Shown here piece after piece: positions 5,141 through 42,794 of a stretch of DNA of 64,000 nt (position 1 is its first letter; every line of letters begins with the position of its first letter). The stretch is from Nocardiopsis gilva YIM 90087 (GTDB lineage Bacteria > Actinomycetota > Actinomycetes > Streptosporangiales > Streptosporangiaceae). The notes beneath the pieces were generated by a model. That model was not told where the DNA came from. It saw only the letters and a program-made list of their open reading frames with translations, and made no database searches. The stretch lies in assembly GCF_002263495.1 (NCBI RefSeq), contig NZ_CP022753.1:3534001-3598000 (forward strand), written 5' to 3'. The position numbers were made by a program, and so were the translations under genes.

Positions 5141-5330
5141 CTGCTCCCCTGCCTGAAGGGGAGGGGATTCTCTCCTTCAGGGCCAAGCGGGGATTCCTAG
5201 CTCAGGCAGCCAGATCAGGCAGCGCCTGATCTGGTCTTACGCCCTCAGCACTAGCCGGGGCCAGACCAGCCCGGACCAGCATCACACGCGCGGAGTTCTT
5301 GTCCCTCGGGGACACGGCCCCGCACGCGGT
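5141..5330 (-). ncRNA. candidate omega RNA of the TnpB element
   Basis: In IS605-type elements the guide RNA covers the 3' end of tnpB plus the right end, and its guide is the flanking DNA just outside the element. Here that region is the last ~130 bases of tnpB and the 61 bases to the hairpin at 5146-5161. The predicted guide starts at the element edge and reads TCAAACCACACAGCGCAGCG, the antisense of the 3' end of the MBL gene. Position inferred from the family, not from a visible promoter. Boundaries are approximate. Confidence 0.4.
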
Positions 5331-6422
5331 GCAGGCATACGTTCGTTCTGAGAGAGGCAGTGCGTGCTTGGTTCTCGCTGCGCACGACGCGCACTCCATG
5401 GTGGTATGCGCGGGATGCACGAGACGGACGTCCCGCCTGTGCTTGCGGCCCATCTCCACCAGCGCCCTCTTCGTGGCGCTAATGGCGGCGTCAGCCGCCT
5501 TGCGCGCCATGGTGGACTTGGCCAGGAACTTCGGACGAAAGTCCTCTACCGCGATCGCGTCGTGGTCGCGCACGACGCGCTTGGCCCATGTGCGCCCGGT
5601 GTCCTGCCGCTGCCTCGCCACCTTCCTGTGCAGCTTCGCGGCCTGCCGCTTCGCCGTCCGGTAGCCCTTCGAAGCGGGCTTGCCCTTCGCGGGTCTACGG
5701 CGGGCCATCAACCGCTGGTATCGGGCCAGCTTCGCAGCCGCCGTCTTGCCGTGCCCGGTGTGCGGAAGGTCGTGGGCGTCGGACGTGGTGGTCGCGGTCT
5801 CCTTCACACCCCAGTCCACACCGATCACCCGCCCGGTCTCCGGCATCGGTTGGACCTCGGCGGGAACCACGAACGAGGCATACCAGTGGCCGAGGTTGTC
5901 CTGATAGACGCGCACGCTGGACGCCTCAGCGGGCAGTTCCCGCGACCACACCACCCGCACAACGATCCCCCCGGCCAGATGCAAACGGCCGTCCTTGAGA
6001 CGGAATCCGCGCCGGGTGTAGTTCAGACTCGGCAGGGATTGGCGCTTCTTCTTCCATCGGGGCATCCCCGCACGCTGCCGCATGGGCAGGCGTTCCTTGA
6101 TGTCCTTCAGGGCCTTGGCGCGGGATTTCGCGAAATCCCGGATGGTCTGCTGCTGCGGGACGCTGCTTCCCTCGCGCAGCCACGCCGACGTCTGACGGGC
6201 CTGGGTCAGCATCGTGTCCAGCCGGGCCGGGCCGCATGTCACCTTCTGGCCGGTGGCCTTGTTGTGCGTGTGCACCTGTTTGGACTTGGCAACGCACTCG
6301 TTCCACACCCAACGGCACCGGTTCCACTCACCGATGAGGGCGGTGTGGGCGGTGGCCGACACGCGAAGCCGGTAGGTGTACCGGGCCTGCCCGGTATCTC
6401 CGGTGTTCTTCGGTGTCGCCAT
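5202..6422 (-). CDS. tnpB: TnpB RNA-guided nuclease (IS605 OrfB)
   Basis: About 406 residues, full length for TnpB. The N-terminal helix-turn-helix/WED-like part is followed by a RuvC-type nuclease with Asp203 in IGVDWGVKE, Glu293 in AVEDFRPK and Asp374 in SPRDKNSA. The inserted zinc finger has C344-x2-C347 and C364-x2-C367. All three catalytic acids and all four cysteines are kept, so it looks active. By established knowledge TnpB uses an RNA made from the element's right end to cut DNA next to a target-adjacent motif and so maintains the element. Starts at ATG 6422; a TTG at 6431 is possible. Confidence 0.93.
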   Translation of the reverse strand: MATPKNTGDTGQARYTYRLRVSATAHTALIGEWNRCRWVWNECVAKSKQVHTHNKATGQKVTCGPARLDTMLTQARQTSAWLREGSSVPQQQTIRDFAKSRAKALKDIKERLPMRQRAGMPRWKKKRQSLPSLNYTRRGFRLKDGRLHLAGGIVVRVVWSRELPAEASSVRVYQDNLGHWYASFVVPAEVQPMPETGRVIGVDWGVKETATTTSDAHDLPHTGHGKTAAAKLARYQRLMARRRPAKGKPASKGYRTAKRQAAKLHRKVARQRQDTGRTWAKRVVRDHDAIAVEDFRPKFLAKSTMARKAADAAISATKRALVEMGRKHRRDVRLVHPAHTTMECASCAARTKHALPLSERTYACTACGAVSPRDKNSARVMLVRAGLAPASAEGVRPDQALPDLAA

Positions 6423-6513
6423 GTCCTGCAACGTATCGGGTGGGTGCGACAGGCGCCGTCTGGCCTATCGGCACGACGGCTTTCCTTGTCCCGCTACGCG
6501 GGGAACCGGATTC

Positions 6514-8608: not shown

Positions 8609-8746
8609 ATGAGCCCCGAACCCGCGATGCCCGTCCCCGCACCCCTCGACCCGCAGACCGGTCCCAGTGGCGACTACGAGGACCTGGTCGACGACGAACT
8701 CCTCGTGGAAGACGTCTCCATCGACGGCATGTGCGGCGTCTACTAG
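8609..8746 (+). CDS. mftA: mycofactocin precursor peptide MftA
   Basis: A 45-residue acidic peptide ending in SIDGMCGVY, the invariant C terminus of mycofactocin precursors. The last two residues, Val44 and Tyr45, are the ones converted by MftC (decarboxylation and ring closure) to the cofactor core. The leader is rich in Asp/Glu (DYEDLVDDELLVED), as expected for binding by the RRE-type chaperone MftB. Start ATG 8609 follows GAAGGGA by five bases; a longer in-frame ATG at 8498 has no such site and would add an unrelated Arg-rich stretch. First gene of the cluster. Confidence 0.95.
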   Translation: MSPEPAMPVPAPLDPQTGPSGDYEDLVDDELLVEDVSIDGMCGVY

Positions 8747-8757
8747 AAGCCCCAGGG

Positions 8758-9078
8758 ATGCCGGCCATGCCCGAGCCCGCGGACCTCGACCTCGACCGCG
8801 CCTGGGATGTGCACCCCCAGGTCGCCGTGCGCCCCGAACCGTTCGGCGCACTGCTCTACCACTTCGGCACCCGCCGCCTGTCATTCCTGAAGGACCCCCG
8901 GCTCCTGGACGTCGTGCGCGGGCTGCCCGACCACCCCAGCGCCCGCGCGGCCTGCGCCCAGGCCGGCGTCACCGAGGCCGAACTGCCCCGCTACGCCCGC
9001 GCGCTGGCCCGGCTGGCCGCCACCCACATGGTCATCGAACGTCCCCACGCCCCTGCCCCCGCGAAGGACCGCCCGTGA
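8758..9078 (+). CDS. mftB: mycofactocin biosynthesis chaperone MftB
   Basis: 106 residues, the size of MftB, a PqqD-like peptide-recognition (RRE) protein that presents MftA to MftC. Visible family features are the N-terminal AWDVHPQVAVRPEPFGALLYHFGTR... strand pattern and RLSFLKDPRLLDVV, followed by a helical C-terminal half. It starts 11 bases after mftA and its TGA overlaps the GTG of mftC, so the three are translated as a unit. The C-terminal PAPAKD tail is variable in the family. Confidence 0.93.
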   Translation: MPAMPEPADLDLDRAWDVHPQVAVRPEPFGALLYHFGTRRLSFLKDPRLLDVVRGLPDHPSARAACAQAGVTEAELPRYARALARLAATHMVIERPHAPAPAKDRP

Positions 9079-10364
9079 CCCATGCGACACCCCCACCGCC
9101 CGCCTCCGGCACGCGCCTGGTCGACCACTTCGAGCACGGCCTGTCCTCCCCCATCTGCCTGACCTGGGAGCTCACCTACGCCTGCAACCTGGCATGCGTG
9201 CACTGCCTGTCCAGCTCCGGGCGGCGCGACCCGCACGAACTGACCACCGCCGAAGCCAGGGCCGTCATCGACGAGCTGGCGGCCATGCAGGTCTTCTACG
9301 TCAACATCGGCGGCGGCGAACCCACCGTCCGCCCCGACTTCTGGGAGCTGCTCGACTACGCCACCACCCACCACGTCGGCGTCAAGTTCTCCACCAACGG
9401 CGTGAAGATCACCGACACCGTGGCACGCCGCCTGGCCGCCAACGACTACGTCGACGTGCAGATCTCCCTGGACGGCGCCACCGCCGAGGTCAACGACGCC
9501 GTGCGCGGCCCCGGCTCCTATGCCACCGCGCTGCGCGCCCTGGACCACCTGGCCGCGGCCGACACGGGCGGCGTCAAACTCTCGGTGGTGGTCACCCGGC
9601 ACAACATCGACCAGCTGGATGCCCTGCTGGGGCTGGCCGACCGCTACGGCGCCACGCTGCGGCTCACCCGTCTGCGCCCGGCGGGCCGCGGGGCGCGCGT
9701 GTGGAACGAGCTGCACCCCACCCCCGCCCAGCAGCGTGCCCTGTACGACTGGCTGCTGGACCACGGCCAGCGGGTCCTCACCGGCGACTCGTTCTTCCAC
9801 CTGTCGGCCTACGGCCACGCCCTGCCCGGCCTCAACCTGTGCGGCGCCGGGCGCGTGGTGTGCCTGATCGACCCACTCGGCGACGTCTATGCCTGCCCGT
9901 TCGCCATCCACGAGGAATTCTGGGCCGGGTCGGTGCGCGACCCGGGCGGGTTCACCCGGGTGTGGCGCTCCTCGGAGCTGTTCGCCCGGCTGCGCCGACC
10001 CGACACCGGCGGGGCCTGCGCCTCCTGCGACGCCTACGACGCCTGCCGGGGCGGGTGCATGGCGGCCAAGTTCTTCACCGGGCTGCCGCTGCAGGGACCC
10101 GACCCCGAGTGCGTCAAAGGGCACGGCGCCCACGCCCTGAACGGCGTCGACGCCGCCCGCACGCCCCGCCCCAGCCCCGACCACTCGCACCGGACCGGGC
10201 CGAGGGGCGCCCCTCCCGCCTCTCGGCCCCACGGCCGGTCGTCCCCGGGCCCCGTGCCGGTGACCATCGGCCGCCGCCCGCCGGCCGCACCGTGCGCCGA
10301 GCACCCCCTAGCCGACGTCCCCCCGACGCCCGAGCCGCCCGGTGGTCGCGCATGCGGGAGCTGA
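9075..10364 (+). CDS. mftC: mycofactocin radical SAM maturase MftC
   Basis: 429-residue radical SAM/SPASM enzyme. The SAM-cluster motif is C37-x3-C41-x2-C44 (CNLACVHC). SPASM cysteines follow in LNLCGAGRVVC, YACPF, CASCDAYDACRGGC and the last DPEC. GGGEPT is the SAM-binding glycine motif. By established knowledge it decarboxylates the MftA C-terminal Tyr and then links Val and Tyr into the lactam core. GTG start overlaps mftB. After the SPASM domain there is a ~65-residue Pro/Arg-rich tail containing PVTIGRRPP, and the tail overlaps the next gene by 13 bases. Confidence 0.96.
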   Translation: MTHATPPPPASGTRLVDHFEHGLSSPICLTWELTYACNLACVHCLSSSGRRDPHELTTAEARAVIDELAAMQVFYVNIGGGEPTVRPDFWELLDYATTHHVGVKFSTNGVKITDTVARRLAANDYVDVQISLDGATAEVNDAVRGPGSYATALRALDHLAAADTGGVKLSVVVTRHNIDQLDALLGLADRYGATLRLTRLRPAGRGARVWNELHPTPAQQRALYDWLLDHGQRVLTGDSFFHLSAYGHALPGLNLCGAGRVVCLIDPLGDVYACPFAIHEEFWAGSVRDPGGFTRVWRSSELFARLRRPDTGGACASCDAYDACRGGCMAAKFFTGLPLQGPDPECVKGHGAHALNGVDAARTPRPSPDHSHRTGPRGAPPASRPHGRSSPGPVPVTIGRRPPAAPCAEHPLADVPPTPEPPGGRACGS

Positions 10365-12376
10365 CCGGCCCGGTGGAGCTGGCCGGCCGCCGGGCACCCG
10401 CGCGCGTGGTGTTCGGCCCACACGCGACCAACCTCGGCGACGGCCGCGCCCTGTCACCGCGCCACACCGCTTACTACGAGCGGCGCGCCGCCGGCGGGGC
10501 CGGGGTGATCATCACCGAGACGGCCTCCGTCCACGCCGACGACCACCCCTATGAGCGCGCCCCGCTGGCCGCCGCGTGCCGCCACGGGTGGGCCGCGGTG
10601 GCCGAGGCCTGCCACGCCCACCGCGCCCTGGTGCTGGCCGGGCTCGGGCACGCCGGCTCCCAGGGCTCCAGCGCCTACTCCCAGCGTGTGTTGTGGGCGC
10701 CCTCGCCCGTGGCCGACGTCATCAGCCGCGAGATGCCCGCGGCCATGGAACGCGAGCAGATCGCCGAGGTCGTGGCGGGCTTCGGCGACGCCGCCGCGCT
10801 GGCCGCGCAGGCCGGGCTCGACGGGGTGGAGGTCGACGCGGGCGCCTGGGCGCTGCTGCGCCAGTTCCACTCGGCGCTGACCAACACCCGCACCGACGCA
10901 TACGGGGCCGACCGGCTGCGGCTGACCCGCGAGGTGCTGGCGGCGGTGCGGTCCTCCATCGGGCCGGGGCGCGTGCTGGCGCTGCGGCTGTCGTGCGACG
11001 AGCTGGCCCCCTGGGCTGGTGTCACCCCCGAGGCGGCGGCCGTCCAGGTGGCGGAGCTGGCCGGGGAGGTGGATCTGCTGACGGTGGTGCGCGGCGGCCC
11101 GTTGGCGCCGCGCGCCTACCGCCCCGACCTGCACACCCCGCCGGGGTTCAACCGCGAGCTGTGCGCGGCGATGCGCGCGGCGGCGGCCGGCCGGTGCGCG
11201 GTGGTGCTGCAGGGCAGCGTCGTGGACGCCGACCAGGCGCGCTCGGCGCTGGCCGCGGGGGTGGCCGACCTGGTGGAGATGACCCGGGCCCAGATCGCCG
11301 ACCCGGACCTGGTGGCCTGGGCGCGCGCCGGGGCGGTGGAGCGGATCCGCCCGTGTGTGCTGTGCAACCAGGCCTGCCAGGTCCGCGACCCGCGCAACCC
11401 GGTGGTGTCGTGCATCGCCGAGCCGCGCAGCGGGCACGAGGGCCAGGACCCGCCCGTGGCCGGGGAAGCCCCCGCGCAACGCGAAGTGCTGGTGGTCGGC
11501 GGCGGCACGGCGGGGCTGGAGTGCGCCCGGGTGCTGGCGCTGCGCGGACACCGGGTCACCCTGGCCGAACGCGCCGGGCACCTGGGCGGAATGCTGCGCA
11601 CGGCCACCGCCCCCGACAGCGGCGCCACGGCCTCAAGCCGCCGGCGGCTGGGGCTGCTGGTCGACTGGTGGGAGCGGGAGTGCCGCCGCCTGGGCGTGCG
11701 CGTGGAGCTCCAGCGGAGCATCGGCGTCGCCGACCTGGACGCGGCGGCCCAGGCGGGCCGCGACGTGGTGCTGGCCACGGGGTCGCGCCCCGCCGAGGGG
11801 CCCGCCCTGCCCCACACCCCCGGCCCGGGCGGGCACGACGAGGACGATGCGCCGGTGTGGCTGGATATCGCCGACGTGCTCGTCCGCCGCAGCCTGCTGC
11901 CCGCCGACGGGCCGCTGGTCCTGTACGACCCCGTGGGCGGACCGGTGGCGGTCGCGGCCTCCGAATGGCTGGCCGACCTGGGACGCGGCGTCCACCTCGT
12001 GACGCCCGCCCGCATCGTGGGCGAGCGGCTGGCGCTGTGCGGGGATCTGGCCGACGCCAACGCGCGGCTGCAGCGCGCCGGCGTCGCCCGCCACCCGCGC
12101 TCCCGGCTGTGCGCGGCGCGAAGGGGGCGGGTCGTGCTGGAGGACGTGTGGACCGCCCAGCGGCGCGAGATCGGCTGCGCCGGGGTGGTCGACTGCGGGC
12201 ACCGGCTGCCCGAGGAGTCCCTGTACACCCTGCGCCCCGGCACGCCGCGCGCCGGGGACTGCGTGGCGCCGCGCACCGTGCTCGAAGCGGTCCTGGAGGG
12301 GCGCCGCCGCGCGCTGGACCTGGACGCGCCCGCACACCAGAAGGCGCCCCACCGGGCCGCCCCCGCGCCCCGGTGA
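10352..12376 (+). CDS. mycofactocin-system FadH/OYE-family oxidoreductase 1
   Basis: 674 residues with the layout of 2,4-dienoyl-CoA reductase. An old-yellow-enzyme TIM barrel (FMN) covers about 1-330, followed by a 4Fe-4S motif CVLCNQACQV with a fourth Cys in VVSC near 350. A Rossmann domain (VVGGGTAGLECARVL, then a second nucleotide region) binds FAD/NAD(P)H. It passes hydride from NAD(P)H through FAD and the cluster to FMN. The substrate is unknown; location directly after mftC implies a mycofactocin-linked role, by inference. ATG at 10352 lies inside the end of mftC. Confidence 0.9.
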   Translation: MRELTGPVELAGRRAPARVVFGPHATNLGDGRALSPRHTAYYERRAAGGAGVIITETASVHADDHPYERAPLAAACRHGWAAVAEACHAHRALVLAGLGHAGSQGSSAYSQRVLWAPSPVADVISREMPAAMEREQIAEVVAGFGDAAALAAQAGLDGVEVDAGAWALLRQFHSALTNTRTDAYGADRLRLTREVLAAVRSSIGPGRVLALRLSCDELAPWAGVTPEAAAVQVAELAGEVDLLTVVRGGPLAPRAYRPDLHTPPGFNRELCAAMRAAAAGRCAVVLQGSVVDADQARSALAAGVADLVEMTRAQIADPDLVAWARAGAVERIRPCVLCNQACQVRDPRNPVVSCIAEPRSGHEGQDPPVAGEAPAQREVLVVGGGTAGLECARVLALRGHRVTLAERAGHLGGMLRTATAPDSGATASSRRRLGLLVDWWERECRRLGVRVELQRSIGVADLDAAAQAGRDVVLATGSRPAEGPALPHTPGPGGHDEDDAPVWLDIADVLVRRSLLPADGPLVLYDPVGGPVAVAASEWLADLGRGVHLVTPARIVGERLALCGDLADANARLQRAGVARHPRSRLCAARRGRVVLEDVWTAQRREIGCAGVVDCGHRLPEESLYTLRPGTPRAGDCVAPRTVLEAVLEGRRRALDLDAPAHQKAPHRAAPAPR

Positions 12377-12415
12377 CCCCGGCCCAGGAGCCCACGAGCA
12401 GGAGAGGAGGCGCCG

Positions 12416-14494
12416 ATGAACCCGCCCGGGCCCGCCGCCGGACGCGGCACCTACCGCCACCTGTTCACCCCGCTGCGCCTGGGCCCACTGACGGTAGCCA
12501 ACCGCATCGTGTTCTGCGCCCACCTGACCAACTACGCCGACAACGGCCGCCCCACCGCCCAGCACGCGGCCTACTACGCCGCCCGCGCGGCGGGCGGGGC
12601 CGGGCTGATCATCACCGAGGAGCACTCCACCCACCCCACCGACCGCCCCTACGAAAAACTCATCGAGGGCTATGCGCCCGGCGTCGTCGACGACTACCGG
12701 CGCCTCACCGATGCCGTCCACGCCCACGACGTGCCGATCCTGGCCCAGCTCAACCACAACGGCGGGCAGGCCAGCTCCATGTACACCCGGCTGCCGGTGT
12801 GGGCGCCCAGCCCGATCGCCGACCCGCTGTTCGGCGAGGTGCCCAAGGCGGTCGAGGAGCACGAGATCACCGAGATCACCGACGCCTACGCCCAGGTGGC
12901 CGCCCACTGTGTGGCGGGCGGTTTCGACGGGGTGGAGCTGCAGTGCTCGCACTCCTCCATCGTCCGCGCCTTCCTCTCCCCGGCCACCAACCACCGCACC
13001 GACCGCTGGGGCGGCCCACTGCCCAACCGCGCACGGCTCCTGCTGCACCTCATCGACGCCGTGCGCGCGGCCGTGGGACCGGACCGGGTCGTGGGGGTGC
13101 GCCTGTGCGGGGACGAGCTGATCGAGGGCGGCACCACCATCGACGAGGCGGTGGAGGTGGCCCGGATGGTGGACGCCACCGGCCAGGTCGACTACCTCAA
13201 CACCTCCATCGGGGTGGCCACCCACACCCTGCACATGGTCGAGGCGAGCATGCGCGTCCCGCCGGGCTATGCCGCCTACATCCCCACCGCGATCCGCGCG
13301 GCGGTGCGCCTCCCGGTGGTGGGGGTGGGCCGCTTCAAGGACCCGCTGCAGGCCGACCGGGCCCTGGGTGCCGGGCACGCCGACCTCGTCGGTGTGGTGC
13401 GCGGGCAGATCGCCGACCCCGACTTCGCCGCCAAGGCGCGCTCCGGCCACGCCGAGGAGATCCGCACCTGCCTGTCGTGCAACCAGGAGTGCGTGGGGCG
13501 CATGGGGCTCAACCGGTGGCTGGGGTGCATCGAGAACCCGCACGCGGGACACGAGGCGGCACCGGCAGACTCGGCGGGCGCCGCCGGGGCTGCCGGTGCG
13601 CGCGGTGAGAGCGGCGGGGTGGCGGCCCCGGCCGCGGTCTCCCTTCCGGCCACCGGGGCCGTGTGGGGGCGACCGGGGCGGCGCGTGCTGGTCGTGGGCG
13701 GTGGACCGGGCGGCCTGCAGGCCGCGGTCAGCGCCGCCGAGCGCGGCCATAGGGTCACCCTCATCGAGCGCGAGGGACAGCTGGGCGGCCAGGTGCCCAT
13801 CGCCGCGCGGGCGCCCGGCCGCGCCGAGTTCCTCGACCTCACCCGCAACCTCGCCGCCCACGTCCGCCGCCTGGGCGTCGATGTCGAACTCGGGACCGAG
13901 GCCGATGCCCAGATGCTCGCGGCGCGGCGCCCGCACGCGGTGGTCCTGGCGACCGGCGCCGTGCCCGCGGCACCGTGGTGGGCCCACGGGCACGCGCGCG
14001 CGGTGGACGTCCGCGACGTCCTCCAGGGGCGGGCGGACCCGGCCGGGCGCGTGGTGGTCGTCGACGAGCTGGGCTTCCACCAGGCCACCTCGGTGGCCGA
14101 GCTACTGGCCGAACGGGGATGCGAGGTGGAGGTGATGACCCCGGCCCTGGTCGTCGGCCAGGACCTGGGGATCACCCTCGACCTGGAGACCTGGAACGTG
14201 AAGGCGGACGCACTGGGGATCCGCCAGAGCACCGACCGGGTGCCGATGGGCGCCGAGGAACTGCCGGGCCCGGCGGGCGGGGTGCTGCTGCGTCTCCAGC
14301 ACCACCCCACGGGAGCCGAGGAGACGCGGGAGGTGGACTGGGTGGTGTGCGCCGTGCACCAGCGGCCCGACGACGACCTGTGGCACGCCCTGCACGGCTC
14401 CCCCTTCACCGTCCACCGCGTCGGCGACTGCCTGGCCCCGCGCCGCGCGCACGCGGCCGTCGCCGAAGGCCACGCCGTGGCGGTGGGCCTATGA
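12416..14494 (+). CDS. mycofactocin-system FadH/OYE-family oxidoreductase 2
   Basis: 692 residues, paralogue of the preceding gene with the same three-part layout: FMN barrel (IVFCAHLTNYADNG, LAQLNHNGGQASS), 4Fe-4S ligands CLSCNQEC plus a Cys in WLGC, and an FAD/NAD(P)H domain (LVVGGGPGGLQAAV). An Ala/Gly-rich linker of about 40 residues joins cluster and Rossmann parts. AGGAGAGGAGG lies just before the ATG. It starts 39 bases after oxidoreductase 1. The two proteins may form a pair or act on different substrates; the sequence does not decide. Confidence 0.9.
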   Translation: MNPPGPAAGRGTYRHLFTPLRLGPLTVANRIVFCAHLTNYADNGRPTAQHAAYYAARAAGGAGLIITEEHSTHPTDRPYEKLIEGYAPGVVDDYRRLTDAVHAHDVPILAQLNHNGGQASSMYTRLPVWAPSPIADPLFGEVPKAVEEHEITEITDAYAQVAAHCVAGGFDGVELQCSHSSIVRAFLSPATNHRTDRWGGPLPNRARLLLHLIDAVRAAVGPDRVVGVRLCGDELIEGGTTIDEAVEVARMVDATGQVDYLNTSIGVATHTLHMVEASMRVPPGYAAYIPTAIRAAVRLPVVGVGRFKDPLQADRALGAGHADLVGVVRGQIADPDFAAKARSGHAEEIRTCLSCNQECVGRMGLNRWLGCIENPHAGHEAAPADSAGAAGAAGARGESGGVAAPAAVSLPATGAVWGRPGRRVLVVGGGPGGLQAAVSAAERGHRVTLIEREGQLGGQVPIAARAPGRAEFLDLTRNLAAHVRRLGVDVELGTEADAQMLAARRPHAVVLATGAVPAAPWWAHGHARAVDVRDVLQGRADPAGRVVVVDELGFHQATSVAELLAERGCEVEVMTPALVVGQDLGITLDLETWNVKADALGIRQSTDRVPMGAEELPGPAGGVLLRLQHHPTGAEETREVDWVVCAVHQRPDDDLWHALHGSPFTVHRVGDCLAPRRAHAAVAEGHAVAVGL

Positions 14495-14861
14495 CCCCCC
14501 GGTCCTGCCCGCTGCGGGCGCTGGGTGGCCTCGGCCGTGAGCGCGGCCGCTGGCCCGCGGTCCCCCGCGTTGGCCCCGACCGGGCCGGTGCAGTATCCGC
14601 CTCGGGCGCAGGACGGACAGCCGTCCTCGACAACAACGCCCGGGGGCGACCGGAACCCGCAGCAACGCTGCGGCGGCACGCCTCAGCCGTCGCCGCCCGC
14701 GGGCGCGGAAGCGCCCACCCTCAGCACACGCGGCCTGGGAGGCGATCGCCTCCCGCCCACCACCCGGCACAACGCGACGCCGGCCCGGCGCCGACTGGCT
14801 CGTGCCCGCACCACCGGCCACCGCCCCCGGCCGCATCCCCGACGACCCAGCGAAGGAACTG
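14495..14861 (+). other. gene-free stretch inside the mycofactocin cluster
   Basis: 367 bases between oxidoreductase 2 and the ETF alpha gene. A 123-codon frame begins with an ATG overlapping the stop at 14491 but its Arg/Pro/Ala translation resembles no family and it runs into the etfA start. No strong terminator or riboswitch was seen. GAAGGAAC precedes the next ATG. Confidence 0.4.
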
Positions 14862-15875
14862 ATGACGTCCTCAGCCCACCCATCCGCGTCCCACGCCCTG
14901 CCCGCCGGGCGGCCTCTGGCCGTGGTCCACGCCCGGGACGGGGCGCTGCCCGCCGGCGCCGATGAGGCGGTCGCCGAGGCCCGCGGCCACGCTCTGGTGG
15001 TGGGGTCCGGGGCGCGCGACGCCGCCGAGGAGCTGCGCGGTGTGGCCGTGCGGTCGTGGTACGCCGAGACCGGCGCGCGGGCCGGGCCCGCCGCGCTGCT
15101 GGGCGGGCTCGTCGACGCGGTTCGTGACATCCCGCTGGTCATCTGCCCGGCCTCGCCGGACGGGCGCGATCTGGCGCCGCGCCTGGCCGCCGCCTGCGGG
15201 CGCGCCCTGCTGGCGGGGGCGATCCGGGTGGGGTTCGACCCGGTCAGCGGGGTCGTCGCCGCCGAGCTGGAGCGCCTGCAGGGGCGGGTGATCGTGGACG
15301 CCGACGCGCCGGCTCCGGCCGTCGCCACGCTCCTGCCGGGCGCACGGACGGTTGCGCCCGCCGCCGACGGGGTAGGAAGCGTCGAACCGGTGCCGATCGC
15401 ACTGCCGGTCGCATCGGCCCGCGACGCTCAGTCCCTCGGCGTCACCGATCCCCGCCCCGAATCGCGGGAGCTGGGCGAGGCGGCCCGCGTGCTCGGCGGA
15501 GGCGCCGGATTGGTGCCGCGCGGCACCGTCGCGGACGAGGCGCGCCGAACGTTCGACCGCCTGGTCCGGGTCGCGGCCCGATTGGACGCCTCAGCGGGGG
15601 CGACCCGCGTGGCCACCGATGCCGGTTGGATGGACCCCGACCGTCAAATTGGCATTACCGGCGCCATGATTGGCCCGGAACTGTACATCGCCTTTGGGAT
15701 CTCTGGGGCGAGTCAGCACACCGGCGGCCTGGGCGCGCCCCGGCACATCGTCAGCGTCAACACCGACCCCGCCTGCCCCATGACGCGCCGCGCCGACCTC
15801 GGGCTGGTCACCGACGCCCGCGCCCTGCTCGAGGCACTGGAGTGCCGCATGCGGGAGGAGGCCCCCGACCCATGA
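14862..15875 (+). CDS. etfA: mycofactocin-associated electron transfer flavoprotein, alpha subunit (FixB-like)
   Basis: 337 residues. The N-terminal Rossmann-like half is divergent. The C-terminal FAD domain is clear: GITGAMIGPELYIAFGISGA, then QHTGGL and VSVNTDPACPMTRRADLG, the FAD signature of ETF alpha. The protein carries the flavin that receives electrons from dehydrogenases and hands them to the FixC-like enzyme. Start ATG 14862 has AAGGAAC seven bases upstream. Its TGA overlaps the ATG of the next gene. Order alpha-FixC-FixX-beta differs from the usual beta-first fixABCX order. Confidence 0.88.
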   Translation: MTSSAHPSASHALPAGRPLAVVHARDGALPAGADEAVAEARGHALVVGSGARDAAEELRGVAVRSWYAETGARAGPAALLGGLVDAVRDIPLVICPASPDGRDLAPRLAAACGRALLAGAIRVGFDPVSGVVAAELERLQGRVIVDADAPAPAVATLLPGARTVAPAADGVGSVEPVPIALPVASARDAQSLGVTDPRPESRELGEAARVLGGGAGLVPRGTVADEARRTFDRLVRVAARLDASAGATRVATDAGWMDPDRQIGITGAMIGPELYIAFGISGASQHTGGLGAPRHIVSVNTDPACPMTRRADLGLVTDARALLEALECRMREEAPDP

Positions 15876-17200
15876 CCCCGCCCCACACCCCCGACCCCGA
15901 TGCTCCCCTCGACGCCGTCGTGGTCGGCGCGGGCCCGGCCGGCGCCGCGGCCGCCCTCGAGCTCGCCCGCGCCGGACGCTCCGTCACCCTGCTCGAACGC
16001 GGCCCCTACCCCGGCTCCAAGAACGTCTACGGCGGCGTGGTCTACGGACGCGTCCTCGACGACGTCCTGCCCCACTGGCGAGACGAGGCCCCCGTCCAGC
16101 GGTGGGTCGTGCGCCGCTCCACCATGCTGCTCACCGCCCAGCGCGCCCTGTCGGCGGACCTGCGCGCCCAGGACTGGGGCGCCCCGCCCCACAACGGCAT
16201 GACCGCCTACCGCGCCGACTTCGACTCCTGGCTGGCCCACAAAGCCGTCGCCGCCGGAGCCCGCCTCCTGACCTCCACCGTGGCCACCGGCCTGCTGCGC
16301 GACCCCACCGGCAGCTTCACTGGCGTGCGCACCGACCGCCCCGCCGGCGACCTGACCGCCCGCGTGGTCATCGCCTGCGACGGCGTCAACTCCTTCCTCG
16401 CCAAACAGGCCGGGCTCCTGCCCGCCGCCGACACCGCCCACCACACCCTCGGCGTCAAGGAGGTCATCGGCCTGGGCCGCGACACCATCGACGAACGATT
16501 CGGCCTGCGCGGCACCGACGGCGCCGACATCGAGATGCTCGGCCACACCCGCGGCATCCCGGGCGGCGGGTTCCTCTACACCAACACCGACACCGTGGCG
16601 GTGGGCGCCGTACTCTCCCTGACCGGCCTGGCCCAGGCCGGCGTCCGCCCCGAGGAGGTCCTCACCGACCTCAAACGCCACCCCGCCATCGCCCCCTACC
16701 TCCGCGGCGGAACCGTCGAGGAGTACTCCGCCCACCTCATCCCCGAGGGCGGCTACGACCGCATGCCCCGCCTGGTCGACGACGGCCTGCTCATCGCCGG
16801 GGACGCCGCCGGGATGACGCTGGCCGCCGGGATCTGGCTGGAGGGCGTCAACTTCGCCATCGGGTCCGGACTGGCCGCCGGACGCGCGGCGGCCAACGCC
16901 CTGGCCACCGGCGACGTATCCGCCCGCGCCCTGGCCCCCTACCGCCGCGACCTGGAGTCGACCTTCGTCCTGGCCGACCATAAACGCCTGCGCGGCGCCC
17001 CGGGCCTGGTGCTGTCCGACCGGGTGCAGCACCGCTACCCCCACCTCCTCACCGACCTGGCCCACGGCGTGTTCACCGTGACCAACCCCGAACCCAAACC
17101 CGGCATCGCCGCGCTCCTGCGCCGCTCGGCGCGCCGCAACGGGGTGCGGCTGCGCCACCTGGCCGCCGACGCCTGGAGAGCCTGGAGGGTGTTCCGATGA
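15872..17200 (+). CDS. fixC: FixC-like FAD-dependent ETF:quinone oxidoreductase
   Basis: 442 residues of the geranylgeranyl-reductase/FixC family. The FAD-binding motif GAGPAG is at residues 19-24, with KNVYGGVVYGRVL after the first alpha-beta unit, an internal VIACDGVNS and LLIAGDAAGM, which contacts FAD. FixC-type enzymes work with ETF and FixX and deliver electrons to quinone. ATGA overlap with etfA and a second ATGA overlap with fixX show tight coupling. No membrane segment is predicted, so membrane contact would be peripheral. Confidence 0.9.
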   Translation: MTPPHTPDPDAPLDAVVVGAGPAGAAAALELARAGRSVTLLERGPYPGSKNVYGGVVYGRVLDDVLPHWRDEAPVQRWVVRRSTMLLTAQRALSADLRAQDWGAPPHNGMTAYRADFDSWLAHKAVAAGARLLTSTVATGLLRDPTGSFTGVRTDRPAGDLTARVVIACDGVNSFLAKQAGLLPAADTAHHTLGVKEVIGLGRDTIDERFGLRGTDGADIEMLGHTRGIPGGGFLYTNTDTVAVGAVLSLTGLAQAGVRPEEVLTDLKRHPAIAPYLRGGTVEEYSAHLIPEGGYDRMPRLVDDGLLIAGDAAGMTLAAGIWLEGVNFAIGSGLAAGRAAANALATGDVSARALAPYRRDLESTFVLADHKRLRGAPGLVLSDRVQHRYPHLLTDLAHGVFTVTNPEPKPGIAALLRRSARRNGVRLRHLAADAWRAWRVFR

Positions 17201-17541
17201 GCCCCGACCCCGCCGCGCACCAGCGCGCCCACACCCGTGCCGACGACGCCGCGGGCTGGGACGACCTGTCCTTCACCGACCGCATGGGCACCGTGCACTT
17301 CCGCGTGGGCGAACGCCCGCACATCACCGTCGACACCCAGGTGTGCCGCACATGCCCGGCCCAACCGTGCGTGACCGCCTGCCCCGCCGACCTCTTCACC
17401 CCCACCGCCGACAGCGGCATCCTGTTCAACTACGAGCAGTGCTTCGAGTGCGGCACCTGCTACATGGTCTGCGACCAGCACGGCGCGATCTCCTGGAGCT
17501 ACCCCGACGGCGGGCACGGCGTCGTCTTCCGACGCGGGTGA
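17197..17541 (+). CDS. fixX: FixX-like ferredoxin
   Basis: 114 residues with two cysteine groups: CRTCPAQPCVTACP and CFECGTCYMVC. The second is a classic CxxCxxCxxxC 4Fe-4S motif; the first is partly degenerate, as in FixX proteins, so one or two clusters are possible. Partner of FixC-like enzymes. Overlaps the upstream gene (ATGA) and ends in a GTGA that could start the beta subunit. About 100 residues is normal for FixX. Confidence 0.9.
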   Translation: MSPDPAAHQRAHTRADDAAGWDDLSFTDRMGTVHFRVGERPHITVDTQVCRTCPAQPCVTACPADLFTPTADSGILFNYEQCFECGTCYMVCDQHGAISWSYPDGGHGVVFRRG

Positions 17542-18460
17542 GCGCCCCGACGGGCGCCGTGGCCCCGCGCACCGGCGCGACGGCGCCGGACCGCTGGTCG
17601 TGGCGTGCGTGCGTCCCACCGACCCCCGCCCCGCGTCGACGCGCTGACCGGCGACATCGGCGTCGACGCGCGCTGCGCCGAGCTGCCACCAGGCGAGGCC
17701 GCGGCGGTGGAGCACGCGCTGCGGGTGGCCGAGGCCTGGTCGGGGCGGGTGCTGGTGGTCAGCGCGGGGCCCGCCGAGGTGGAGCCGGTGCTGCGCGAGA
17801 TCCTCGCGCTGGGGGCCGCCGTACTGCGCGTCCACGGCGCCGAGCGCGACCCCGACTCCGCGGCCGGGATCGCAGAAGACGAGCAGGCACTGGCCGCCGT
17901 TCTGGCCGCGGCCATCACGCAGAGTGCCGCAGCGCCGCCCGCGCTGGTGCTGTGCGGGGCCGGGTCCCCCCACCGGGGCACCGGGGCGCTGCCGGCGCTG
18001 CTGGCCCACGAGCTGGGCGCGGCCCAGGCGCTGGGTCTGGTGCGGCTGGAGGCGCAAACCGGCACGGTCGACGGCGCCCCCCTGGTCGGCGAGCGCCGAC
18101 TGGACGGCGGCCGCCGCGAACTGCTGCGGATCCCGGTGCCCGCGGTGTGCTCGGTGGAGGCGGGCGGGATGCGGCTGCGCCGCGCCCCGCTGGCCGGGGC
18201 GCTGGCGGCGGCCGACGCCCCCGTCCCCGGGCGGCGCCCGCACCGCCCCGCCGCCCGGGCGTGCGGGTCCGGGGGGTGCGCGCCTACCGCCCGCGCACCC
18301 GCCTGGTGCCGCCTCCCCGGGCGCGACGGCGCACGAGCGGCTGCTGGCCCTGACCAACGCCGCCCAGGACCGCGACCCGCCCACCGTCCTGGGCCCGCTG
18401 ACGGCGGAGCAGGCCGCCGAGGAACTGCTGGCCTTCCTGCGCCGCCACGGCTACCGGTGA
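17538..18460 (+). pseudogene. etfB: mycofactocin-associated ETF beta subunit (FixA-like), frameshifted as read
   Basis: ETF beta homology is spread over all three frames. VVACVRPTDPRP (17600-17635) is in one frame, DALTGDIG through GGMRLRRAPLAGAL (about 17632-18210) in the next, VRGVRAYRPRTRLV (18260-18310) in the third, and ERLLALTNAAQ to the stop returns to the first. Each step is of the minus-one type, as if one base were missing near C/G runs. A possible GTG start at 17538 overlaps fixX but would need one more step. Since its three partners are intact, consensus errors seem likelier than gene loss. Confidence 0.75.
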
Positions 18461-18560
18461 CCGGCGCTCGCCTGCCCGCCCCTGCCCGGCGACCAGGACA
18501 CCCGGCGGGGGGCTGCTGCGGGCCTTGCCGACCCCGACCCTGGTGGCTTAGCGTCACGCC

Positions 18561-19184
18561 ATGCGACCCGAGAGTAGCCCGAACCCCCGCAAACCCCATT
18601 CGATCATCGAGGAGGCGCGGCGGCGGCAGATCGTCGACGCCGCGATCACGACGGTGGCCAAGGTCGGCTACGCGCAGGCGTCGCTCGCTCAGATCGCCGA
18701 CAACGCGCGGATCAGCAAGAGTGTCATCTCCTACTACTTCGACGGCAAGGACGACCTGCTGGACCAGATCGTCGCCGAGATCTACGCCGACATCTGGGCC
18801 TTCATCGAGCCCCGGCTGGCGGCCGAGTCCCGGGCCCGCGACCGGCTGCGGGTCTACATCGCGGCGACCCTGGACTACATGCGGTCGCACCGGAAGCGCT
18901 CGATCGCGGTGATGACCATCGTCGGCAGCCACCGCCGGGAGGACGGGACGCTGCGCTTCGCCTCCCTGGGCGCCGACGATTCGATCACCGGTGAGCTGGT
19001 CGCGATCCTGCGCCAGGGCCAGCGCGACGGGGAGTTCCGCGACTTCGACCCCCAGGTGCTGGCCACCACCGTCAGCCGGGCGCTGACCGGGGCGCTGGCC
19101 ACGTGGGTCATGCACCCGGAGGTGGATCTGGAGCAGTACGCCACCGAGCTGGTCGCCCTGTTCGAGCTCGCCACCCACCGCTAG
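18561..19184 (+). CDS. TetR/AcrR family transcriptional regulator
   Basis: 207 residues. The N-terminal helix-turn-helix (IVDAAITTVAKVGYAQASL, ISKSVISYYFDGKDDLL) is typical of TetR, and the C-terminal ligand/dimer half is helical. It follows the ETF beta gene on the same strand by 100 bases and may control the cluster. It does not look like the mycobacterial MftR sequence, whose recognition helix region differs, so I do not call it MftR. The ligand is unknown. Confidence 0.88.
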   Translation: MRPESSPNPRKPHSIIEEARRRQIVDAAITTVAKVGYAQASLAQIADNARISKSVISYYFDGKDDLLDQIVAEIYADIWAFIEPRLAAESRARDRLRVYIAATLDYMRSHRKRSIAVMTIVGSHRREDGTLRFASLGADDSITGELVAILRQGQRDGEFRDFDPQVLATTVSRALTGALATWVMHPEVDLEQYATELVALFELATHR

Positions 19185-19374: not shown

Positions 19375-19654
19375 GAGGCGGGAAACCTGCCCGGGCTGGG
19401 CAGGGCCGCTCCAGCCGACTCTCATCACCGATCTAGGCGCCGCTCGATGCCCGCCCGCCGGGCCTCCAGGAACCGCCTGGGAAGGCCGGGGGCCACCGCA
19501 TCAAGCGCGCAGAGGTCCGGCGTCGGCGACGCCCTCCCGGACGGCCCAGGCGCGCACGGCCCCCGTAGGGCGCTCCAGCGGGAGCGGCGGCCGCAGAGGT
19601 GTCGGGCCGACGCCGAGGGGGCCGGGGCTGCATCGGTGGAACGGCCTGGCCCTG

Positions 19655-20633
19655 TCAGGGGTGGGCCAGGGCCAGGCGGGCGCGGAATTCGGCCTCGGTG
19701 ATGATGTCGATGCGCTGGCCGCGGGCCCGGTAGGCCTCGGCCCGGAGGTGCTTGCTGGTCTTGCCCGTCCCGTCGTGGGCGCCGATGACCAGGACGTCGG
19801 TGGCGCGGGTGACGTTCTTGGCGGGTCGGCCACCGGCCTCGGCGATGCGCTTCCAGGCCTCGGGTTTGTCCATGGCGTCCAGGTCGCCGGAGACGCACAC
19901 GGTGCGCCCGTACAGCGGGCCGGTGGGGTCGGCGTGGGGGTCGGGTTCGGGCAGTGGGGCGCGGCTGGCCTCCTGCCAGCGGGCGAAGCGGTCCTGGGCG
20001 GCCGCGGCGGGCGCGGGGCCGGTGGGGAGCGGCCCTCGGCGCATCCGACGGCGCGGCGTGGTGCGCCTCCAGGCGGCCCAGGCGCAGGCGGGCGGCGCGG
20101 GCCAGGTCGCGCAGCGCGGTGGTGCCGAAGTGGCCCAGGGCGGCGATGACGACGCGCGCGGCGGCCTCGGCGTCGGCGTCGGCCCGGTGGTGGCGGGTGA
20201 TCGGGTGGCCGATGTGGGCGCAGACCGTGGGCAGCCGGTGGTCGGGCAGGCCCTGCCAGGTGCGCCGGGCCAGGGCCAGGGTGCAGGCGTAGTCGAGCCC
20301 AGGCCAGCCCTGCCCGGTGTGGGCGCAGGCACCGCGCAGCACACCCATGTCGAAGGCCGCGTTGTGCGCGACCAGCACGCCGCCGTCGGCGAAGTCGAGG
20401 ATGCGGGCGCGCACCTCGGGCCAGTGCGGCGCGTCGGCGACATCGGCGGCGGTGATGCCGTGGACGGCGGTGTTGTGGCGGGTGAAGAAGTCCACGGGGC
20501 GCGGCGGGCGGATCAGGGTGCTGTACCGGTCCACGACCGCGCCGTCGGCCACCCGCACCAGGCCGACCGCGCAGGCGCTGCCCCGGTCCTGGTTGGCGGT
20601 CTCGAAGTCGATCGCGGTCCAGGTGTCGGCCAC
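19655..20633 (-). pseudogene. DnaQ-like 3'-5' exonuclease with C-terminal BRCT domain, frameshifted as read
   Basis: The first ~195 residues form a DEDDh exonuclease: AIDFETANQ (Asp, Glu), LVAHNAAFDMGVL (Asp) and HHRADADAEAAA (His, Asp). Near 20040 homology jumps frame to QDRFARWQEA and then a BRCT domain, GRTVCVSGDLD, with a Trp/Gly-rich core and THAT-type end (ATDVLVIG). Fusion of a DnaQ exonuclease to BRCT is a known actinobacterial layout related to DNA polymerase III epsilon. GTG start at 20633. The shift here is plus-one (or two losses), unlike the others. Confidence 0.75.
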
Positions 20634-20757
20634 GGGGCGCCTCCTGCGGGTCGCGCTGTGCGGTGCATCAGAGCGTGAGGCTACCGCTGTGCGGGGGTGG
20701 GCGCCGCGAAACGGGCGCATCCGCCCGGCGCCCGTGGCCGGGGCGGGCGGCCGGGGG

Positions 20758-35970: not shown

Positions 35971-36569
35971 TCCGGCTGCTGCAAGCCCACGAATTCGAGG
36001 TCGTCGCCGCCGTCGACAACGGCCCAGACCTCCTCAAAGCCCTCCTGGAGCACCGGCCCGACGTCGGCGTCGTCGACGTACGCCTGCCCCCCACCTTCAC
36101 CGACGAAGGACTCCAGGCCGCCATCGAAGCCAGACGCCACGTCCCCGGGCTGCCCATCCTCGTGCTCTCCCAGCACGTCGAACAGCTCTACGCCCGCGAA
36201 CTCCTCTCCGACGACGGCGGCGCCGTGGGCTACATGCTCAAAGACCGCGTCTTCGACATCGGCCAGTTCATCGACGCCATCCGCCGCGTCGCCGCCGGCG
36301 GCACCGCCATGGACCCCGCCGTCATCTCCCAGCTGCTGGCCAAACACAGCGAAGACGGCCCCCTCGCCGCCCTCACCCCCCGCGAACGCGAAGTCCTCAG
36401 CGAAATGGCCGAAGGCCGCTCCAACTCCGCCATCGCCCAACGCCTCTTCATCACCGAAAAAGCGGTCAGCAAGCACATCAACAACATCTTCACCAAGCTC
36501 GACCTGCCGCCCTCCAACGACGACAGCCGCCGCGTCCTCGCCGTGCTCGCCTACCTCAACAACGCCTGA
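35922..36569 (+). CDS. LuxR-family response regulator
   Basis: 215 residues. Receiver: VVIAEDLALL, phospho-acceptor Asp in VGVVDVRLPP, Ser in VLSQHV, Lys in YMLKDRV. GerE domain: LTPREREVLSEMAEG and ITEKAVSKHINNIFTKL. The start is GTG at 35922, inside the kinase gene, with GGAG eight bases upstream; an ATG at 35911 is in a different frame. Partner of the preceding kinase. Confidence 0.93.
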   Translation: MRVVIAEDLALLRDGLIRLLQAHEFEVVAAVDNGPDLLKALLEHRPDVGVVDVRLPPTFTDEGLQAAIEARRHVPGLPILVLSQHVEQLYARELLSDDGGAVGYMLKDRVFDIGQFIDAIRRVAAGGTAMDPAVISQLLAKHSEDGPLAALTPREREVLSEMAEGRSNSAIAQRLFITEKAVSKHINNIFTKLDLPPSNDDSRRVLAVLAYLNNA

Positions 36570-36735
36570 GCGCACCCGCGGCCGGGGGGACACACACCCC
36601 CGCACGCGCCGGTGCCGGCGCGTGGACGGTCCGCACCGGCACCGGGCCAGCCCACCAACGGGCTGCTGGCGCGCAAGGCGCCACAAACGAACCGCGGCCA
36701 CATCCGGCCGCGCCGGGGCACCCCACGCCACCGCG

Positions 36736-38742: not shown

Positions 38743-38958
38743 GCCGGCTACTCCTCCACCTACGGGGGCCGCCACCCGGCCGCCACCCTCGCGTCGCAAC
38801 AACGACGAACGTCACCTGAACGAGCCCTACTGTGCACGGTTTCCTCACCCAACGGCAACTCCCCACCACGCCCCGGACCTGCACGCACACCCCCACCACC
38901 GCTCGACACCAGGCCTTTGGTCCTTGAGCCCCGCCCACCCCCGGCACACTGACCCCCC

Positions 38959-40017
38959 ATGACCCCCACACACAAACTCACCACCCTCCTGGCCGCCCTC
39001 ACCCTGGCCACCACCCCCGCACCCACCGCACACGCCGACACCCCCACCCCACCCCCGCCACCGTGGCCACCTCCGGCCACCACATCGACCCCCGCCCCAG
39101 CACCGCCGAACTCACCCGCCGCCTCCACCGCCTCGAAAACCGCAGCCACGGCCACATCGACGTCACCGAAATCGGCCGCACCAACCAAAACCGGCCCATC
39201 TACAACGCCACCGTCGGCACCGGCCCCGACGCCTCCTCTACATCACCCAGCAACACGGCGACGAACCCCTCGGCACCCCCGCCGCCCTCGAATTCCTCCG
39301 CCACATCGGCACCGGCACCACCCCTGGCACCGCTGGATCCGCTCCCGCCTCACCATCGACATCGTCGTCCGCGCCAACCCCGACGGCTCCGAACTCAACT
39401 GGCGCTACAACCACGACCCCCACGCCGACCCCGAATACGGCCACAAAGGCAAGGGCTACGACCCCAACCGCTACCACGACCCCGCCCTACACCCCGACGA
39501 CAACCCTGTCCCCGAATCCGCCGCCGTCCAACGCACCTACGCCCAAGCCGACCCCGACATCGTCGTCGACTACCACATGCAAGGCCGCTACACCGACGCC
39601 CACGGGCGCGAAATCACCGCCTCCGTCATGTGGCCCACCCACCCCGACGTCGACACCCGCACCACCGACCTCGCCCGCCAAGTCTCCGTCGCCGCCGCCC
39701 AGGCCATGAACGCCTCCCACCCCACCGCCAACGTCAGCACCTACCCCGGCGGCAACTACCAGGGCATCGCCCGCAACGCCTACGGCCTGCGCGGCAGCGG
39801 CAGCGTCCTCATCGAACTCAGCGCCATCGGCCCCCACGCCCAACAGCGCCAAATCCACTCCGCAATCGCCGCCATGACCGCCATCGCCCAACGCTCCGCC
39901 GACGGCTCCCTCACCCGCATCGACCCCGCCCGCGCCGACGACATCCCACCGCGCGGCGCCCCCATCCCCAGCAACGACCGCGCTCTGACCGCCGGCCCCG
40001 CCGACACCCTCGACTGA
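38959..40017 (+). pseudogene. secreted M14-family zinc carboxypeptidase, frameshifted as read
   Basis: A signal peptide (MTPTHKLTTLLAALTLA, cleavage near AHADT) is in the first frame. HHIDPRPSTAELTRRLHRLE and EIGRTNQNRP follow in the next frame. ITQQHGDEPLG, with the zinc ligands of the HxxE motif, is in the third. DIVVRANPDGSELNW, YHMQG (third zinc His) and SVLIELSAIG (catalytic Glu) are back in the first. All three steps are minus-one. Every M14 catalytic element is therefore present once the frame is joined. It would cleave C-terminal residues of peptides outside the cell. Confidence 0.75.
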
Positions 40018-40037
40018 CCCCCACCCCGAACACACCA

Positions 40038-40075
40038 GTGGCCTGCGAGTCCCGACCTCCAGACCCGCAGGCCAC
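40038..40075. terminator. hairpin between convergent genes
   Basis: Perfect 10-bp arms GTGGCCTGCG (40038-40047) and CGCAGGCCAC (40066-40075) with an 18-base loop. It lies between the 3' ends of the M14 gene and the monooxygenase-like gene and probably terminates both. Confidence 0.6.
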
Positions 40076-40099
40076 CCATGCCCTCGTCGTCAACCCCCC

Positions 40100-40384
40100 T
40101 CACGGGGCCTCAACCGCGGAAATCACATAGCGAGCCACCGACGCACCCACGATCGCCGCCTGCTGCTCCGACGTCGGCCCCGACCCCCGGAAGCGCTCCA
40201 GATCCTCCGCACGCTCCCACCGCTCATACACATTGATCCGGCCCGGCTCCACCAGGTCCGGTGACAACGCGAAGTCCCAACACCCCGCCGCCGACCGCGC
40301 CTGCTCCACCACGCCCCGGCACCCCTCCAGGTACGCGGCCCGCTCCCCCGGATCCACCTCGATATGACCAGCGACGATCAACAC
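40100..40384 (-). CDS. antibiotic biosynthesis monooxygenase (ABM) domain protein
   Basis: 94 residues, one ABM ferredoxin-like domain: VLIVAGHIEVDPGERAAYL strand-helix, then ARSAAGCWDFALSPD, NVYERWERAEDLERF and a C-terminal strand. The NVYERWE segment is the most conserved part of the family. Such small proteins act as cofactor-independent monooxygenases or as heme/quinone-related enzymes; the substrate is unknown. GTG 40384 has GGAGAGG about ten bases upstream; a GTG three codons earlier is possible. Codons are G-ending, opposite to the C-ending genes on the other strand. Confidence 0.82.
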   Translation of the reverse strand: MLIVAGHIEVDPGERAAYLEGCRGVVEQARSAAGCWDFALSPDLVEPGRINVYERWERAEDLERFRGSGPTSEQQAAIVGASVARYVISAVEAP

Positions 40385-42788: not shown

Positions 42789-42794
42789 GCGGAC

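Follow-up and report, generated by a model that had tools for sequence, protein, structure and literature searches.

An OYE/ETF/FixCX module in the mycofactocin operon of Nocardiopsis gilva that may take the place of the pre-mycofactocin synthase MftD

The window is a 64,000-nucleotide stretch of contig NZ_CP022753.1 of Nocardiopsis gilva YIM 90087. The genes mftA, mftB, mftC, OYE1, OYE2, etfA, fixC, fixX, and etfB lie in one direction on the + strand at 8.6–18.5 kb of this window (Table 1). The ends of neighbouring genes mostly overlap; OYE2 and etfA are approximately 370 bp apart. Gene identities were assigned from scores against curated families with their cut-offs. MftA, which carries IDGMCGVY at its C-terminus, is clustered with MftB and MftC, and each of the three scored above its cut-off. 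The curated families thus bore out the predicted one-directional run of mftABC, OYE, ETF, and FixCX genes, except that etfB is broken and the TetR gene at its end is not mftR.

Table 1. Features of the mycofactocin locus (positions in the window) and their scores against protein families.
Feature	Product	Position	Strand	Family score
mftA	Precursor peptide, C-terminus ...VEDVSIDGMCGVY	8609..8746	+	TIGR03969 44 bits, cut-off 25
mftB	Peptide chaperone	8758..9078	+	TIGR03967 116 bits, cut-off 33
mftC	Radical SAM/SPASM maturase, GTG start	9075..10364	+	TIGR03962 636 bits, cut-off 265
OYE1	FadH/OYE family oxidoreductase 1	10352..12376	+	TIGR03996 900 bits, cut-off 628
OYE2	FadH/OYE family oxidoreductase 2	12416..14494	+	TIGR03997 949 bits, cut-off 793
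etfA	Mycofactocin-associated ETF alpha subunit	14862..15875	+	NF038209 399 bits, cut-off 240
fixC-like	ETF:quinone oxidoreductase	15872..17200	+	PRK10015/FixC families 318/297 bits, below cut-off
fixX-like	Ferredoxin	17197..17541	+	PRK15449 FixX 53 bits, below cut-off
etfB	Mycofactocin-associated ETF beta subunit, disrupted	17600..18460	+	TIGR04503 270 bits, middle part alone; cut-off 200
tetR	TetR-family regulator adjoining the module	18561..19184	+	Best match BetI 74 bits, below cut-off

The etfB gene scored above the TIGR04503 cut-off over profile positions 10–211 of 290 only. Mapping with intact relatives placed its N-terminal, central, and C-terminal pieces in differing frames, with at least three frame changes (near 17630, at 18230–18260, and at 18316). 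Since these pieces share no single frame, etfB is broken in this assembly. The terminal TetR gene reached 22 bits with the MftR model (TIGR03968, cut-off 225), which rules it out as MftR, and it probably lies outside the conserved module. A genuine MftR (273 bits) is encoded in a relative (G052), divergently and upstream of mftA.

The original prediction described the locus as lacking mftD, mftE, and mftF. This is correct for the locus itself but not for the whole genome, in which MftF is encoded 1.35 Mb away (C1:4895865-4897235; 445 bits, cut-off 280), adjoining an NDMA-dependent alcohol dehydrogenase gene. Genome-wide, no protein exceeded the MftD cut-off of 471; the best match was a lactate-dehydrogenase-like protein in two pieces (262 bits in total), and the LldD-like protein at 2892573 was rejected as MftD by its score. 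No protein in the genome exceeded the MftE cut-off of 172 either. The best match, a creatininase homologue (137 bits), was likewise rejected; the gene neighbours of the creatininase at 791893 look unrelated to mycofactocin. In relative G056, mftE is found in synteny between the alcohol dehydrogenase gene and mftF, and it is missing at this genome's mftF site. MftG scored above its cut-off in this genome. mftC is single-copy, and the mftC, MftD, MftE, and MftF profile results showed no second mftABCDEF locus, so that no intact mftDEF stands beside another mftABC. Co-occurrence of MftF with MftC was reported to be perfect, whereas MftD is not universal among mycofactocin clusters (Haft 2011). 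In M. smegmatis, lack of mftE lowers the yield of mycofactocin but does not abolish its production (PMC7491314).

OYE1 is predicted to contain FMN, 4Fe-4S, and FAD/ADP domains. Comparison of an AlphaFold model showed that OYE2 has the three-domain OYE/4Fe-4S/dinucleotide fold, with full-length matches to 2,4-dienoyl-CoA reductase and to histamine and trimethylamine dehydrogenases. The TM scores were 0.82 for 3k30, 0.83 for 1djq, and 0.80 for 6l6j, and the reductases 1ps9 and 6qkg were equally close (0.82). At the sequence level, 2,4-dienoyl-CoA reductase (254 bits) is a closer match to OYE2 than histamine dehydrogenase (159 bits) is. The alignment with 3k30 showed that domain 3 of both OYE1 and OYE2 has lost the NAD(P)H-type GxGxxG motif. 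This argues against a role fed by NAD(P)H and disfavours the OYEs as NAD(P)H-dependent reductases, contrary to the reducing partners originally envisaged. Every complete module copy examined (10 OYE1 and 12 OYE2) retains the four 4Fe-4S cysteines. The covalent-FMN cysteine is not conserved (Leu in OYE2, Ala in OYE1), nor is the catalytic tyrosine of TMADH, the position of which is occupied by Gln in OYE2.

All four subunits of the FixABCX/EtfABCX type are encoded together at the locus, etfB in disrupted form. The FixC-like protein matched the Thermotoga EtfC chain of 7koe with 247 bits versus 65 bits for human ETF-QO, and the FixX-like protein is 58–73% identical to its counterparts in other module loci. 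The etfB of relative G002 has a bifurcating ETF as its best match, at a weak 55 bits. The predicted electron path from ETF through FixC/FixX to quinone is what this gene set most naturally suggests.

The module and MftD were mutually exclusive. Not one case of the two together was found among approximately 60 other genomes and plasmids, although the genomes counted are related and represent fewer independent cases. MftD was missing from all genomes (17/17) and plasmids (6/6) found with a mycofactocin ETF; the genome of locus L210 has the module and no MftD. Within the order, 23 genomes carry mftC; those with OYE2 above its cut-off were precisely the five without MftD, the other 18 all having MftD. 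Across the phylum, the mycofactocin EtfA exceeded its cut-off in 12 of 397 genomes, including this one (312–399 bits; next score 174), and MftD occurred in none of the 12. Conversely, MftD was present in all 16 named genomes in which no ETF was seen beside mftC. The ten plasmid records with mftC were divided in the same way: six had the module without MftD and four had MftD without the module. The MftC tree fits one or several origins of the module. Several module genomes yielded no MftD homologue at E 1e-60, so the module genomes have no common LldD-like stand-in.

The gene order agrees with this distribution. Complete loci read A-B-C-[OYE1-OYE2-etfA-fixC-fixX-etfB]-E-F or -F-E, compared with A-B-C-D-E-F elsewhere, and the module thus occupies the usual mftD site between mftC and mftE/mftF. 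Several plasmid cassettes carry every mft gene but mftD. These loci in relatives and plasmids make the OYE/ETF/FixCX genes an integral, recurring component of a variant type of mycofactocin cluster. The predicted co-occurrence with mftABC in relatives proved strong. The OYE pair alone is ruled out as a substitute for MftD, because Rhodococcus and Pseudonocardia carry OYE1 and OYE2 without ETF beside mftC and also have MftD. By itself the pair is therefore compatible with MftD and may have another role. OYE1 has lost the 4Fe-4S cysteines in 7/7 Pseudonocardia, in which MftD is kept and no ETF lies beside mftC.

We conclude that the six-gene module OYE1-OYE2-etfA-fixC-fixX-etfB probably substitutes for the pre-mycofactocin synthase MftD in a variant biosynthesis operon. 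The step catalysed by MftD is aerobic (PMC8406134). OYE1 and OYE2 belong to the family that includes trimethylamine, histamine, and 6-hydroxypseudooxynicotine (Pno) dehydrogenases. The related Pno, an amine dehydrogenase with FMN, 4Fe-4S, and ADP, passes electrons to EtfAB and on to EtfQO and CoQ, and the proteins of this chain are encoded in one cluster (PMC7688666). The features that the OYEs share with TMADH and histamine dehydrogenase (the missing domain-3 motif and the four 4Fe-4S cysteines), together with the partition with MftD, led us to propose that OYE1/OYE2 deaminate AHDP oxidatively. After processing by MftB/MftC, MftA would be released as AHDP, the amine of which would be dehydrogenated by these flavin/4Fe-4S enzymes, and the resulting imine would hydrolyse to the alpha-keto lactam PMFT. 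From the 4Fe-4S cluster, electrons would be handed to the dedicated ETF and then, by FixC/FixX, to menaquinone, so that a step for which the MftD pathway uses O2 would be linked to the quinone pool. The remotely encoded MftF would then glycosylate the product. We infer AHDP as the substrate, the direction of electron flow, and quinone as the acceptor.

Another reading, close to that of the original prediction, is that OYE1/OYE2 oxidise mycofactocinol (PMFTH2/MFTH2) from mycofactocin-dependent dehydrogenases and pass the electrons via ETF/FixCX to menaquinone, as a counterpart of MftG. MftG does this in mycobacteria and is absent from approximately 25% of mycofactocin organisms, and background oxidation of MFTH2 was reported to occur without it (PMC11778925). 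The PMFT/PMFTH2 couple (−255 mV) is able to reduce menaquinone (−74 mV), several plasmid cassettes contain SDRs annotated as mycofactocin-coupled, and MftD and the OYE pair coexist in Rhodococcus. However, MftG is not partitioned with the module: within the order it exceeded its cut-off in 3/5 module genomes, including this one, and did not in 7/18 MftD genomes. On this ground MftG replacement was rejected as the main role of the module. The source of PMFT in module genomes without MftD would also be left unexplained. Since clusters that have the module differ from those that lack it in MftD, and not in MftG, the distribution points to cofactor synthesis rather than to re-oxidation of mycofactocinol, and we consider the latter doubtful.

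It is quite unlikely that the module works on another substrate, one of alcohol or secondary metabolism, and is carried along with the mft genes by association alone, with MftD lost to another oxidase. The plasmid cassettes do have polyketide and other biosynthetic genes nearby, but the module sits inside the biosynthetic operon even in distant families, its partition with MftD was complete in the sets searched, and no LldD-like substitute is held in common. Still less probable is bifurcation, in which the ETF would oxidise NADH and reduce quinone via FixC together with a low-potential carrier driving reduction by the OYEs or MftC. It draws on the FixABCX/EtfABCX-like gene set, the closeness of FixC to the bifurcating Thermotoga chain, and the weak match of the G002 etfB. 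However, this composition is shared by other FixABCX-like sets, the operon contains no ferredoxin consumer, and EtfB is very divergent. Bifurcation by the mycofactocin ETF/FixCX is unsupported.

That the module and MftD were never found together suggests a second, oxygen-independent route to mycofactocin. We lean towards the view that there are two interchangeable pre-mycofactocin synthases: MftD, which uses O2, and an ETF-linked amine dehydrogenase, OYE1/OYE2, which is independent of O2 and feeds electrons into the respiratory chain via FixC/FixX, the second type being complete on transferable Streptomyces plasmid cassettes. Four protein families named by mft neighbourhood only thereby gain a testable function. 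If true, MftD replacement would explain cofactor production in organisms without MftD and make mycofactocin synthesis independent of O2, with a bearing on the mycofactocin reported in anaerobes (Geobacter, Pelotomaculum). Such replacement would also offer a clear-cut example of oxidase and ETF-linked dehydrogenase swapping at one biosynthetic step.

The locus resembles the canonical mftABCDEF(G) cluster of mycobacteria and most mft actinomycetes in its MftA, MftB, MftC, and MftF families and in the A-B-C order, and this genome likewise encodes mycofactocin-dependent dehydrogenase families. It differs in that MftD is absent, the OYE/ETF/FixCX module stands at the D position, mftF lies far from the locus, and no mftE can be identified. 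The locus genes are members, above cut-off, of TIGR03996, TIGR03997, NF038209, and TIGR04503 (etfB by its in-frame middle part). The literature searched gave no function or MftD link for these families, the names of which come from neighbourhood only, and no paper tying MftD absence to an ETF module. Trimethylamine, histamine, and Pno dehydrogenases share the OYE, 4Fe-4S, and dinucleotide-fold architecture and also lack the domain-3 NAD(P)H motif. Pno, as at the mft locus, has ETF and quinone oxidoreductase genes alongside, and it binds FMN non-covalently; the FMN cysteine is likewise absent from OYE1/OYE2. The mft system differs from these enzymes by its two non-identical OYE subunits and by the absence of the tyrosine of the TMADH set. 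Like FixABCX/EtfABCX, it has etfA, etfB, fixC, and fixX as one operon with a FixC of the EtfC type, whereas its EtfA and EtfB belong to separate families specific to mycofactocin.

The family model searches upheld the predicted gene set of the mycofactocin (mft) operon from mftA to fixX in the genome of Nocardiopsis gilva YIM 90087 (complete, one contig, 6.14 Mb; window at 3,534,001–3,598,000). The TetR gene was ruled out as MftR by curated family model search.

Genes of the mycofactocin locus supported by family models (window positions)
Gene	Position	Support
mftA	8609–8746	curated family model, above cut-off
mftB	8758–9078	curated family model, above cut-off
mftC	9075–10364	curated family model, above cut-off
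OYE1	10352–12376	curated family model, above cut-off
OYE2	12416–14494	curated family model, above cut-off
mft_etfA	14862–15875	curated family model, above cut-off
fixC	15872–17200	family models
fixX	17197–17541	family models

The last gene of the OYE1–etfB module, mft_etfB (17600–18460), follows fixX and is spread over different reading frames. One frame holds both its N- and C-terminal pieces, another the centre, and the third a short stretch ahead of the C-terminus. Relatives hold an intact mft_etfB (317–333 bits). The adjoining DEDD-type exonuclease gene with a BRCT-like end (19428–20720) also appears frame-split; for mft_etfB, errors in the local sequence are therefore just as likely as decay. 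Either local assembly indels or decay may account for both splits, and the module may be inactive in this strain if the etfB lesions are real. To judge from its sequence alone, a gene on the minus strand at 5202–6431, approximately 2 kb from the operon, resembles an IS200/IS605 transposon protein of the TnpB/OrfB type. A strong skew marks 8 kb of the window (36001–44000), unlike the rest: GC skew is −0.32 to −0.34 there, and AT skew +0.26 to +0.29.

The original prediction of a cluster lacking mftD, mftE and mftF was right for the locus itself. It held genome-wide for mftD and mftE, for which nothing scored above the cut-off, but not for mftF (genome 4,895,865–4,897,235, 445 bits). The best MftD match, split into two pieces, totalled 262 bits against a cut-off of 471; lactate dehydrogenase models score almost as high on this protein. 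The best MftE match reached 137 bits (cut-off 172). It is a creatininase-like protein (791893–792543; loci L009 and L019), possibly of a separate creatininase-like family, whose neighbourhood resembles one in the genome G024, which has a true MftE elsewhere. mftC is single-copy. The remote mftF adjoins a gene for an NDMA-dependent alcohol dehydrogenase (L018:7564–8682), which scored 500 bits against a cut-off of 440; the pair spans 4894563–4897235. These dehydrogenases are a class of mycofactocin-dependent nicotinoprotein. The matching neighbourhood in the relative G056 reads ADH-mftE-mftF, and this syntenic mftE is absent from the N. gilva copy.

MftD and the module excluded each other in the genomes searched. 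An mftC match over the cut-off was found in 23 of the 151 genomes of the order sample, and 18 of the 23 carried MftD. OYE2 was over the cut-off anywhere in the genome in exactly the other five (N. gilva, G052, G056, G001 and G002), all with mftBC-OYE1-OYE2-etfA-fixC-fixX-etfB; in G002, additional genes separate OYE1 from OYE2. The seven MftD loci read from end to end were ordered A-B-C-D-E-F or B-C-D-E-F, or had one of these orders with mftF at a greater distance, and contained no OYE or ETF. In the phylum, mft_etfA was over the cut-off in 12 of 397 genomes (312–399 bits; next score 174), N. gilva among them, and none of the 12 had MftD. The L210 genome agreed, giving 17 module genomes without MftD. 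L196 (no MftD) was left out of the count, its contig stopping inside OYE2. Conversely, MftD was present somewhere in 16/16 named genomes without ETF seen beside mftC, the only place where ETF was judged, with two loci (L211, L213) stopping at a contig edge. mftABC and/or mftE/mftF flanked the module wherever the fetched stretch was long enough, and co-occurrence of the OYE/ETF genes with mft genes in relatives was strong.

The ten mftC plasmid records showed the same partition. Six Streptomyces plasmids carried the module and no MftD; in the other four MftD was present, and no OYE2 or mft_etfA was found with the limits used. Four annotated module plasmids also carry mftF and mftE, and NZ_CP107787 carries mftE plus an upstream glycosyltransferase. 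The sixth, CP077967, is unannotated, and the layouts given are those of the other five. The chance of perfect separation was 3e-5 (order sample) and 0.005 (plasmids) assuming independent cases, which they are not fully, as the ETF label needs four changes on the MftC tree. One origin of the module is still compatible with this tree. The Streptomyces linear plasmids L270–L274 hold complete mycofactocin cassettes minus mftD (e.g., NZ_CP108009.1 127256–138936). Several have polyketide or other biosynthetic genes nearby, together with SDRs annotated as mycofactocin-coupled, which suggests mycofactocin use in secondary metabolism.

In mycobacteria, MftE frees AHDP, and MftD oxidatively deaminates it to PMFT; all later products vanish upon mftD loss, whereas they only fall upon mftE loss (PMC7491314). 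This MftD reaction is aerobic (PMC8406134). Most likely, the module takes the place of MftD, in which case AHDP would be its substrate and menaquinone its electron acceptor. It is also possible that the module re-oxidises mycofactocinol, because such re-oxidation is known for MftG, which is absent from 25% of mycofactocin organisms (PMC11778925). However, the presence of MftG does not distinguish module clusters from module-free ones. In N. gilva, a GMC oxidoreductase distant from the operon (5213880–5215406; L145) exceeds the MftG cut-off (432/387 bits) and may act alongside the module as a mycofactocinol dehydrogenase. NCBIfam already has names for the module gene families, which also appear in plasmid annotation, and Haft 2011 noted that MftD is not universal. 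Neither the mutual exclusion of module and MftD nor the idea that the module serves as an alternative pre-mycofactocin synthase turned up in the literature searched.

In Pseudonocardia and Rhodococcus the OYE pair is present with no ETF next to mftC, and MftD is retained. The 4Fe-4S cysteines were kept in every complete module copy examined (10 OYE1, 12 OYE2) and in 4/4 Rhodococcus/Prescottella loci, and were missing from OYE1 in 7/7 Pseudonocardia loci (L173, L179, L199, L207, L211, L212, L218). The 4Fe-4S centre of trimethylamine dehydrogenase (TMADH) is its electron-transfer site to ETF (PMC8097209); cluster loss therefore accompanies loss of the ETF partner.

Both module OYEs, OYE1 and OYE2, fall in the three-domain family of 2,4-dienoyl-CoA reductase, 2-naphthoyl-CoA reductase, histamine dehydrogenase, TMADH and Pno. 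In the domain 3 alignment, OYE2 has VVVVDELGFHQATSVAELLA and histamine dehydrogenase VVVYDDDHYYLGGVVAELLA, and the NAD(P)H-enzyme motif GxGxxG is absent from both. Over the whole sequence, however, the amine dehydrogenases are more distant from OYE2 than dienoyl-CoA reductase is, and the TMADH tyrosine and FMN cysteine are missing from the module OYEs. The nearest match of FixC is the EtfC chain of Thermotoga EtfABCX. The best precedent for the module is Pno, an FMN/4Fe-4S/ADP amine dehydrogenase that passes electrons to EtfAB and then EtfQO. Its gene cluster includes etfAB and euo, and the same kind of step is carried out by an unrelated amine oxidase in other bacteria (PMC7688666).
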